From Planctomycetia bacterium (lineage in GTDB: Bacteria; Planctomycetota; Phycisphaerae; UBA1845; UTPLA1): a DNA stretch of 64,000 nt. Where the stretch lies: positions 992,001 through 1,056,000 of the forward strand of contig JABTTW010000001.1 of NCBI GenBank assembly GCA_015075745.1, given 5' to 3'. Of the stretch, positions 1 to 3,541 are shown piece after piece (the stretch's first letter is position 1; each line of letters opens with the position of its first letter). Position numbers and translations under genes: made by a program. The notes under the pieces were generated by a model, which ran no database searches, was not told the origin of the DNA, and worked only from the letters and a program-made list of their open reading frames with translations.

Positions 1-494
1 TTGCCGTGGATCGGATCGTCGGTCGCGTCGAAGTCGAGGATCAATTCCTCCGGCGGCGATTCATAGGACGCGATGAACTGCTCCACCAGCACACGCGACA
101 TTCGTGCCAGGTCGCCGCGCGTGACGCGGTTCTCCAGCCGGCACAAGGTCGGACTGCTGGCCAGCGGCTCATCCGCGCTCGGCGGCCGCCCGGTCAGGAC
201 CGCCAGCACGGGATCGCTCCGCAGGGCTTGATGGTCGTTGAGATCTTCGTAGCCCATCGCAATGGCAAAGATGCGCTGGGCCAGCATGACCCGCTGGTCA
301 TGTTGAATTCGGGCCGGATCACGCGGGTCGTTGATGACCCCGGCCAGTTGATCGACCAGGCCCAGACGCCGCTCGACCTCCCGAAGCAGCAGACCCCCGG
401 CGTCTGAGGTGAGCGTTCCGCCTGTGAAATCGGCCACGATTTTCTTGCGGCCGAGACTGGAAAAGAACATCGGTTTGCTGTTACAGTCTGTCAC
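1..494 (-). mobile_element. IS1380-family transposase, N-terminal part, cut by window edge
   Basis: Reading the minus strand from a GTG at 494 gives about 164 residues of a transposase that runs off the left edge. The start is supported by AGGGAGG seven bases upstream and by the N-terminus MTDCNSKPMFF, which resembles IS1380 transposases. Further on are LGRKKIVADFTGGTLTSDAG, a LLLREVERR segment, and DFDATDDPIHG, which carries the first catalytic aspartate of the DDE-type active site. IS1380 transposases are usually about 400-450 residues, so most of the gene lies outside. The element should end between about 500 and 650; I could not identify its terminal inverted repeat. The plus-strand reading frame across this stretch is only a shadow. 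Confidence 0.88.
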
Positions 495-657: not shown

Positions 658-1698
658 ATGGCCATATCACTTAAGGAAGCGTTCAAGGCGTTCGGCTTTA
701 CGCTTAGTCTGCCGGAGCGCCTGGTACGGTCCGCGGCTGTGGCGATTGGCGGAACGTCGAAGCTGCTCACCGACACGCTGATCCCCGAGCCTCTGCGAAA
801 GACGACGGCTTACATCGCCATGGTCGGCAACAGCCAGCGATTCTTCATCGAAAAGATCGCCGAGGTGCAGGGCGCCTACGAGGTCTCACCGGATGGTGCG
901 GGTTCTTTGCCGGAAAACTACATTCCACGGGCCATGGCGGGAAACGTCATCAATGCGGCCGGACTCTTCGCCGTTCACCTCTCGCCGTTGTGGGTCTTCG
1001 CGTTTGTGAGCGACATCGCCCACGGATCGAAGGCCTACCTCAATAAGCTCGTCGCCGAGTTGAAAGAGAACGGTGTTATCGACAAGGATGCACACATCAA
1101 GGAAGTGGACGAGCTTCTTGAGGCGCTCGGCAAGGCCGGCAAGGACACGGCGCAGGTGTTCGACCTGCCGCCGGTCGACGTCGCCTCGCTGGCGAAGTTG
1201 CGCGACGACCTGACGCGCGGATATTCCGGCGTCTTCAAGGAGGCCACCGACCTTCTGCCGCGCATCGATAATCTCTGGGCCAGGATGCAGTCGCTCGCCA
1301 GCCGGGACGGCGTGGCGATGGAGTCTGTCGTCGGGCTCATGACACTCGACCTGGAAGCCACCGCGGGCAAGGCGGTCGGCGCGGCCTTCGCGGTGGGCAA
1401 CGCAACGGCGGATGTCCTCTCCGAGACGATCTTCCAGTCTTACGGCGAGACGATCTATCGCATTCAGGAGCGCGGCGCGGTGACGTGTCTTGAGGAGGCG
1501 GGCAAGCCGTTCTTCGACGCGATCACGGCGCACTTGTCTTCGAACAAGCAGAGTTGGACCGAATGGGCACTGGGGAAGATCATGAGCCCGTTCGTGGGCG
1601 ATGAGGCCTCGGCACTTCCAACCTGTTCACCATCGCTTGCGACGCCCACGGAAGCGCCGAAGCCGAATGATCCTCCAGCAACCCCACCCATAAAGTGA
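658..1698 (+). CDS. hypothetical protein next to the IS element, possibly 5'-truncated
   Basis: About 346 residues from the ATG at 658. I do not recognise the family. The frame is open upstream to about 409, but that part runs antisense through the IS1380 transposase, so it cannot be native. The protein is alpha-helical looking, with hydrophobic Ala/Val-rich stretches around residues 85-115 and 230-260, acidic-basic helices between (such as AYLNKLVAELKENGVIDKD), and a low-complexity Pro/Thr tail (APKPNDPPATPPIK). No signal peptide is obvious. No good ribosome binding site precedes 658, and the IS insertion may have removed the original 5' end or promoter. Codon use looks normal for the window, so I consider it a real gene of uncertain start. 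Confidence 0.6.
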   Translation: MAISLKEAFKAFGFTLSLPERLVRSAAVAIGGTSKLLTDTLIPEPLRKTTAYIAMVGNSQRFFIEKIAEVQGAYEVSPDGAGSLPENYIPRAMAGNVINAAGLFAVHLSPLWVFAFVSDIAHGSKAYLNKLVAELKENGVIDKDAHIKEVDELLEALGKAGKDTAQVFDLPPVDVASLAKLRDDLTRGYSGVFKEATDLLPRIDNLWARMQSLASRDGVAMESVVGLMTLDLEATAGKAVGAAFAVGNATADVLSETIFQSYGETIYRIQERGAVTCLEEAGKPFFDAITAHLSSNKQSWTEWALGKIMSPFVGDEASALPTCSPSLATPTEAPKPNDPPATPPIK

Positions 1699-1790: not shown

Positions 1791-1816
1791 TTGACACAGC
1801 GGGGGGGGGATACAAT
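1791..1816 (+). promoter_or_regulatory. promoter-like element with a nine-G tract in the spacer
   Basis: A perfect -35 box TTGACA at 1791-1796 and a -10-like TACAAT at 1811-1816 are separated by 14 bases, of which nine are consecutive G (1801-1809). The spacing is 3 bases short of the usual 17. It lies 77 bases upstream of the ATG at 1893. Changes in the length of the G run would change the spacing, as in known phase-variable promoters; here that is inference only. Confidence 0.45.
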
Positions 1817-1892
1817 ACCTGCAAATTGTACGTTTGCTGTCGCTTGGAAGCGAGTACAATCGGGCAGTTCATTTTCTATTAGAGAGGACATC

Positions 1893-2765
1893 ATGAAACG
1901 CTGTTTGTCGGGCCTAATTCTTTTACTATCAGTTAGTGCTGGTGGTATGGCGCAGCCCGTGTACGCTGAACCAGAATCGACGGTCCTGATCTATTTGGAT
2001 CAAAGCCCAGGAGCAGTTCCTTGGGCACATCTCTGGCAATCAATCGCTGCAAGGGAGCAAAGAAGTGTGGTCTACGCCACAAACTCAGCCAGCTTCTCGC
2101 TTCGCTTAGCAGAAGGGACTTGGGCACGCGTCATAGTGTTGTCAAGGTATGTTTCGGGCGAACCGGCGTACGCCGGACCTCTTCGAGAGTACGCGCAGTT
2201 GCATCCTCAGGATGAGGTTCAGATTTTTACTTGGCACGACCACGGTGAAACAACAACTCCGGGAACCGCGGTTGTCGGCACAACTGCGATAACTGGGTGG
2301 CGAGGAAACTCAACGACTACACTTTACGCACTAACATCCAGTACACCGTTTCAAACGCCACGCCCTGCCACTGAATCTGGTCTAGTTCTTCCGACGTTTT
2401 CTGGCATTCAGGTTCGTTCGCTAGCAACTGTCGGTCCATACTCGGAGACAATGGATTCGGGAAATCTACGGGCCATCGGGATTCAAATAGAACCGTGTGA
2501 AGACAATTGTTTCAATACATGGGTTAGTAAGACGCTGGCGTGCTTAACAGAACGCACCACCCAAGAACAACACTGTAACGTCGCACATGGTCCTACCTCG
2601 CCCAATCCGGATCAACAGCGGTGGACGACATGCATGCAGGAGGCGGCTGAAGATTATTCGAATTGCATTGGCGCTGCATTCCACCAATATAAAAGATGTA
2701 TTGATTTTTGCAAAGCCCTGACGGTGCCGGCGACTACGCAGCCCGCCCCGGATCCAGGCGGCTGA
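1893..2765 (+). CDS. secreted Cys-rich hypothetical protein (intact member of a tandem pair)
   Basis: A 290-residue protein starting at the ATG at 1893, preceded by AGAGAGGA. Residues 1-26 form a signal peptide (MKRCLSGLILLLSVSAGGMA, then a VYA-like cleavage site). The body (about 30-130) carries a compact alpha/beta-looking segment with VLIYLDQSPG, LAEGTWARVIVL and EVQIFTWHDH. A Thr/Ser-rich linker follows, then a cysteine-rich tail with about nine Cys (CEDNCF, HCN, TCMQEAAEDYSNC, CIDFCK) and a Pro-rich end. I do not know the family. The body and tail are repeated in the damaged copy downstream (2800-3541), so this is one half of a tandem duplication. A sampled 120 bases (1981-2100) are about 53% GC, lower than neighbouring genes, which suggests acquired DNA. 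Confidence 0.78.
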   Translation: MKRCLSGLILLLSVSAGGMAQPVYAEPESTVLIYLDQSPGAVPWAHLWQSIAAREQRSVVYATNSASFSLRLAEGTWARVIVLSRYVSGEPAYAGPLREYAQLHPQDEVQIFTWHDHGETTTPGTAVVGTTAITGWRGNSTTTLYALTSSTPFQTPRPATESGLVLPTFSGIQVRSLATVGPYSETMDSGNLRAIGIQIEPCEDNCFNTWVSKTLACLTERTTQEQHCNVAHGPTSPNPDQQRWTTCMQEAAEDYSNCIGAAFHQYKRCIDFCKALTVPATTQPAPDPGG

Positions 2766-2799: not shown

Positions 2800-3541
2800 A
2801 TGATCCGATTAGTGCTGTTGATCTGTGCGTTTGCATTCTCTGATGTAGGTCCGGAGGAAGTCAAACTGACTCCGCCAAGGCTCTGATCCTCTGCGACGGT
2901 TCCGCTGGGTCGGTCGAGGATGCTGAAGTCTGGACGCAGGTGCTGGCGGCGGAAAATCCGCGCGTCGTAACTCTCTCCGGCGAAACGGACTTGAGAGCCT
3001 TCGATCTGCCCGACGGCGAGTGGCCGGTCGTGTTTCTGTTTGCTGAGCATCGCGGGGAAGGAACGGTTTGGCTCCAGGCGCTGCGGTCCTTTGCTCGAAC
3101 GCATCCCACTTCCCGCGTTCATCTTTTCCTCTGGAAGGCGACCGGATACCTCGGTGAGGACAGGTCATCGGTCATTGCATCGACCATCATTGCAGCCTGG
3201 CGAAACGGAAAGAAAGGGAGGAAAAGATAGTGCCAAAAGGGTCAAGTCGAAAGAAAACCCCCTTAACTGACTGCAAGACCAAGTACGTGGTTAAGTATCG
3301 CGACCGGAGTCTACGCTGTGTCAAGGAAAACAAGGAGCGTCAACAAGACTGCATCGAACTCTACGCTCCACAGGGAAACGATCCCGGAGACTTCGATGCT
3401 CTCGGTCGATGTATCCAAGATGCAGTGGAGGACCTGACCAACAGCTTAGCCGCTGCCGGGAGAGATTCACGTCGAGGCATGGCACTTTGTGAGAAGCGCC
3501 ATGGAGGCGCTCCCGCCCCAATCGATCCGAGCCCAAAATAA
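2800..3541 (+). pseudogene. decayed tandem paralogue of the preceding secreted Cys-rich gene
   Basis: Three pieces match the gene at 1893. First, an ATG at 2800 gives a signal-peptide start (MIRLVLLICAFAFSD) but meets a stop at 2884-2886. Second, in a different frame, about 2870-3230 reads ALILCDGSAGSVEDAEVW, LPDGEWPVVFLFAEH and RVHLFLWK, aligning with VLIYLDQSPG, LAEGTWARVIVL and VQIFTWHD of the upstream copy. Third, from a GTG at 3230 (sharing one base with the TAG at 3228-3230) comes a Cys-containing tail with CIQDAVEDLTNS and PAPIDPSPK, like the upstream tail. A net one-base deletion (or two-base insertion) near 2855-2886 would explain the first break; the Thr/Ser-rich linker is missing. 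The 103-residue tail piece could still be translated by coupling, so partial function is not excluded. Confidence 0.6.

Follow-up and report, generated by a model that had tools for sequence, protein, structure and literature searches.

Phase variation through homopolymer tracts in promoters has been described mainly in host-adapted pathogens, with immune escape as the usual reason. In the 64-kb window examined in this study, that is, the whole stretch of 64,000 nucleotides that was analysed, a run of nine G residues lies between the -35 and -10 boxes upstream of a gene for an exported protein. This locus raises the question of whether such a tract may serve as a slippage-prone switch in a planctomycete, and whether other genes are preceded by the same device.

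Promoter site and exported-protein gene in the window

The features of the locus are as follows.
658..1698, plus strand: conserved upstream neighbour, which precedes the same gene in the second (G001) and third (G002) species of the genus too.
1791..1796, plus strand: -35 box TTGACA, read from the sequence; the same hexamer precedes a homopolymer in 4 of 4 non-tandem copies in the genus.
1801..1809, plus strand: G9 tract (CAGC-G9-A) within the 14-nt spacer, identified from the sequence, the tracts of relatives and the class-wide excess.
1811..1816, plus strand: -10 box TACAAT, read from the sequence; its counterparts in relatives are TACAAT, TATCAT and TACGCT.
1855..1860, plus strand: second TACAAT, a rival -10 box without a good -35 box.
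1882..1888, plus strand: GAGAGGA, a ribosome-binding-site-like sequence.
1893..2765, plus strand: gene behind the promoter, encoding an exported protein of 290 aa with a signal peptide by rule, nine Cys and homologues in 10 of the order's 114 genomes.
2800..3541, plus strand: broken tandem copy of this gene in three frames, judged from the sequence and from the open frame in G001.

The spacer was read directly as CAGCGGGGGGGGGA (1797-1810, 14 nt), and 76 nt separate the -10 box at 1811-1816 from the ATG at 1893. Here, as in the wider class described below, a homopolymer is flanked by recognisable -35 and -10 boxes, which is the arrangement of a spacer-type phase-variable promoter. The distance between the boxes lies around the 17-nt optimum, the 14 nt of the window being three slips away. 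The generic promoter scan could not list the site, since it allowed only spacers of 16-18 nt. When both strands of the window were scanned for TTGAC followed by a run of at least seven and TANNNT, this site was the single instance. G8 runs as such showed no excess in the window (5 observed, 5.33 expected), and hence the claim rests on the position of the tract between the boxes.

A transcript could also start from the second TACAAT, in which case the G tract, about 50 nt upstream, would at most set the spacing of a regulator. In keeping with this reading, G002 and G001 have a box (TACAAT and TAGAAT, respectively) at a comparable offset. However, the paralogue in the same genome has no counterpart and carries an ATG in that place; the box lacks a good -35 box and gave no hit in the generic promoter scan, and a start from it would leave the order-wide clustering of boxes around tracts unexplained. 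We regard such a start as quite improbable.

The 290-aa protein passes a crude hydrophobicity rule for signal peptides, which is not SignalP, and eight of its nine Cys fall within residues 202-273, the last third. It matched no Pfam or NCBIfam family and, with a best PDB sequence match at E 0.81, was not assigned to a described family. A direct search with the protein itself gave no named relatives; with the adjacent glycosyltransferase as query, those that came closest were mainly metagenome-assembled genomes of Phycisphaerae and other planctomycetes. A structure model of low confidence (window protein and four other rows; mean pLDDT 60.9) suggested an N-terminal part of alpha/beta type, weakly modelled, followed by a helical C-terminal part that bears the Cys residues. 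In this model the N-terminal half would weakly resemble receiver or flavodoxin folds. The best PDB fold matches were receiver domains at E 0.014 and a TM-score of about 0.43 by target length, too weak for a functional claim.

The tandem copy is distributed over frames at 2800-2886, about 2892-3230 and 3230-3541, and the equivalent second gene in G001 is one open frame. The upstream neighbour showed 71% and 69% identity by tblastn in G001 and G002, respectively; its start at 658 is our reading of where the homology begins. Next to the gene lies a transposase of DDE group 1 (Pfam DDE_Tnp_1_4; window 3-494), presumably IS1380-like; over 164 aa it is identical to a copy beside the distant paralogue (L152:577-1068).

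The initial annotation had described a perfect TTGACA and TACAAT around exactly nine G residues, with a 14-base spacer about three bases short of ideal, in front of a secreted, Cys-rich gene with a broken tandem copy. Direct reading confirmed the boxes, the tract and the shortfall of three from 17 nt; the crude rule, the nine Cys and the split over three reading frames agree with the rest.

Tract length in relatives and near-identical copies

Homologues of the gene turned up in 5 of the 61 related genomes searched with the single protein, and a profile search of the whole order (114 genomes) gave the 10 genomes mentioned above. Within the genus, all four non-tandem copies have a homopolymer between TTGACA and a -10-like box. 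Besides the window gene, these are the paralogue at C1:3282904 in the same genome (5.0 Mb, 4 contigs; G9, spacer 20), the copy in G001 (C12G4, spacer 18) and that in G002 (GGAG7, spacer 14). The boxes are kept while the spacer varies in length and even in base, and the C12 spacer of G001 disfavours a G-specific element. The initial annotation had held that a constant tract in relatives would tell against switching; here tract length differed between close relatives with flanks kept, in a comparison that spans species and paralogues with one genome per species. The G002 copy counts against slippage, since its tract is interrupted by an A and its spacer equals that of the window, as might be the case for a fixed element.

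The picture among farther relatives was mixed, which also counts against slippage. A G10 tract lies upstream of one copy in G006, and C5TC5 and C7 occupy the same place in two copies of G003. In G073, a G10 run lies about 390 nt upstream of the gene. No G or C run of at least six was present within the 420 nt examined upstream of the two copies in G068, the copy in G087 or the tandem second copy in G061. In G061, of another family, two copies (L325 on C155 and L328 on C32) have G10 outside the spacer, downstream of the likely promoter and ahead of the start codon; slippage at such a place might affect translation or transcript stability.

The same genome contains a third tract of this kind at C1:530808 (G11, spacer 20), which precedes a different secreted protein (locus G000:C1:529756-530839; L148, L313); an all-against-all BLASTP gave no match between it and the window protein. 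Of the 17 genomes in the family, two have this second protein, and both have the tract; the relative in G002 has G10 and a spacer of 16. Thus, the device appears to have been joined to different genes and kept with changed length. The genome has 14 G9+ runs in total, and the architecture was absent at C1:245574, 726562, 868152, 2419396 and 2422957, at 2826835 and at the 1519040 block. The last is a nearly pure G block of 106 nt (G000:C1:1519040-1519145; 43+21+40 with a single C between; L271), which sits beside a transposase-like frame and could be an artefact of assembly or an unusual element.

Near-identical copies of tract promoters elsewhere also differed in the tract. Two copies in G047 are 91% identical over 236 bp with a lone 5-nt gap, and this gap falls in the C tract, giving spacers of 14 and 19. 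A stretch of about 100 bp common to the two species G027 and G058 is 91% identical and contains G13 in the former and G15 in the latter. Between two copies in G258, the tract differs in length by a single G, and a T run by a single T. A pair in G378 has G12 and G15 with no further gap beside the tract. This pair may be no promoter, because its gene is without a signal peptide and its spacers are long (21 and 24), and it counts against the slippage reading. Finally, a pair in G450, 3 kb apart, is identical for at least 120 bp upstream of the -35 box and on into the tract, and diverges thereafter (G12TT and G11AG) ahead of two related secreted proteins with 40% identity. That region (G450:C12:242500-249000; L251) resembles a promoter cassette copied in tandem.

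Recurrence of the architecture in the order and the phylum

The pattern TTGACN{0,15}G9N{0,8}TANNNT was run against the full set of 114 genomes of the order. Its form was settled once the first sites had been seen, and the tests of spacer clustering and of signal peptides stand apart from that choice. The scan gave 43 matches in 27 of the 114 genomes, whereas the reversed pattern gave one, which rules out chance. The distinct matches number 41, because one tract was counted twice and two contig ends in G027 carry the same sequence. The corresponding C9 version gave nine matches against two for its reversed form. With exactly six G the counts were 159 and 59, so that the excess over the reversed control rises from 2.7-fold at six G to about 40-fold at G9+. 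An excess that grows with tract length is what would be expected if slippery length is selected.

The pattern permits spacers of about 8 to 37 nt. Nevertheless, 34 of the 43 order matches have spacers of 15-20 (expected fraction 0.33, P 6e-10), and the spacers range over 14-23. In a phylum sample of 392 genomes, 61 matches outside the genome of the window were obtained, in 39 genomes, against nine for the reversed control, and after merging of double counts 48 of 58 spacers were of 15-20. Many contigs stop soon after tract promoters (L138, L143, L246, L248, L262 and others), which might mean that the genes behind them are repeated or resist assembly.

We then took 50 sites for analysis of the genes behind the tracts: 41 of G type (all order matches minus the window site and the double count), eight of the nine of C9 type, and one C8 of the genome of the window. 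Five had less than 250 nt downstream, leaving 45 usable. A gene was called when an open frame with a ribosome-binding-site-like sequence was present within 350 nt. Genes were called at 35 sites; in 26 of them, as in the window gene, a signal peptide is predicted by the same hydrophobicity rule, a crude criterion used in place of SignalP. On visual inspection, signal peptides also stand at the start of part of the remaining nine and of part of the sites with no called gene, and these lie outside the count. As a control, 40 six-G sites with spacers of 15-20 were taken in list order, of which 39 were usable and gave 28 genes. Only seven of these have signal peptides, and the set includes genes that we take to encode a thioredoxin and a galactokinase. 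The corresponding figures were 244 of 1772 for random positions and 8 of 39 for the genes of the window. Furthermore, 20 phylum regions, picked by hand and accordingly not a random sample, contained 21 sites, 16 of them usable, with 16 genes and 11 signal peptides.

Cys exceeded 3% of the part after residue 25 in 24 of 52 class genes, that of the window included, as compared with 2 of 28 six-G genes. When 30 class proteins were tested against Pfam, 24 matched nothing at E 0.01; the other six matched FG-GAP, dockerin, DUF3466, DUF7901, a sulfatase-modifying-factor-like domain with PEP-CTERM, and M23 peptidase.

These counts bear on two other explanations of the tracts. One is that they are sequencing or assembly artefacts, or intergenic G runs drifting neutrally. 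The order does contain 2849 G9+ runs, most of the genomes are draft assemblies, and the 106-nt G block may itself be artefactual. However, in the same genomes the reversed pattern gave one match against 43, and artefact or drift gives no reason for the clustering of spacers or the bias toward signal peptides. Tracts also recur in orthologues from separately assembled species. We consider this explanation very improbable.

The other is that the homopolymer is a fixed spacer element, acting as stiff DNA or through G contacts like those of an extended -10, that sets promoter strength by a length that does not switch. Order-wide, G is strongly favoured over C on the coding strand of the spacers (43 rows versus 9), an excess for which slippage alone does not account, and in 23 of the 43 order matches the G run abuts the -10 box directly; a G adjoining the -10 box might work like an extended -10. 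The common spacer of 14 in G002 and the window, despite the interruption in G002, points the same way. By contrast, a C tract takes this place in G001 (C12) and at eight other C9 sites, the spacers scatter over 14-23 around no one value, tract length differs among near copies, and six-G spacers have a far smaller excess and no signal-peptide bias. A fixed element is unlikely on balance, if less so than an artefact or a start from the second TACAAT.

Probable slippage-tuned spacing and its meaning

Taken together, the site in the window is probably a sigma-70-type promoter in which a slippage-prone G tract in the spacer is tuned by slipped-strand change. This was the proposal of the initial annotation, and it gains support, at the level of genome comparison, from the varied tracts of relatives, the 43 matches against one, the clustered spacers and the signal-peptide genes downstream. 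Gain or loss of G at replication would alter the distance between the -35 and -10 boxes. By analogy with porA and tp0126 (below), the 14 nt at G9 is predicted to be weak or off, and about G12, near the 17-nt optimum, to be on. Daughter cells would then differ randomly in their output of the secreted Cys-bearing protein. Slippage in living cells, its on/off effect and any benefit are what we infer from this arrangement.

MutS was found in all 21 genomes searched, above the family cut-off in 20, and loss of mismatch repair was rejected as a driver. Intact MutS would restrain switching, since mismatch-repair mutations raise the rate at mononucleotide repeats according to the accessible part of PMC3639595.

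Comparable promoters are known. In Neisseria meningitidis porA, a gene for an outer-membrane protein, a poly-G tract likewise lies between -35 and -10, with 9-11 G in the strains covered; 11G goes with high expression, and 10G and 9G with less (PMC3639595). There, the changes in length and expression were measured and immune escape was shown (PMC3639595), whereas genome comparison alone is used here. The planctomycete device, unlike that of porA, recurs before many unrelated secreted proteins and in many genomes. In Treponema pallidum, tp0126, an OmpW homologue, also has poly-G between the boxes and is best transcribed when this sets them 17 nt apart, and there are several poly-G promoters per genome, including those of tpr genes (PMC7864442, in the text available). 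That organism, however, is a pathogen, its proteins are porin-like and the tpr tract lies elsewhere in the promoter, by the same text (PMC7864442), whereas the genes found here encode secreted, often Cys-rich orphans in planctomycete metagenome-assembled genomes. N. meningitidis opc likewise has a promoter tract, of poly-C, that alters transcription and may be compared with C12 in G001; according to PMC7864442, that tract extends over the -35 region and probably exerts its effect via a regulator, whereas the tracts described here lie between intact boxes.

In open-access titles and abstracts, a coverage outside which most subscription journals fall, no report was found of phase variation in planctomycetes or under Phycisphaer-; open-access titles and abstracts likewise gave no report of promoter homopolymer phase variation in metagenome-assembled genomes. 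The accessible part of PMC4060949 contains nothing on long G runs in planctomycete promoters. The class of slippery promoters is apparently widespread and previously unreported. The device is a known one, here lineage-wide and in bacteria not known as pathogens.

Because the architecture recurs before other secreted proteins, mostly orphans and often Cys-rich, it has the appearance of a set of contingency promoters that spans the lineage. We lean toward the view that Planctomycetota, Phycisphaerae included, have a lineage-wide phasome, in which a homopolymer spacer has been joined repeatedly to unrelated secreted proteins and would hedge the exported proteome. On that reading, which we hold somewhat more readily than its opposite, these proteins are lineage-specific and often Cys-rich, and host immunity is not the known driver. 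Varied exported proteins may help cells to withstand phages, predators or competitors, or to attach, and, if the reading is true, such needs could be what selects for variation in promoter tracts. In practice, TTGAC-(G/C)9+-TANNNT with 15-20 nt between the boxes would provide a marker for variably expressed exported proteins, mostly without a family, and this marker can be put to the test directly on existing metagenome reads.
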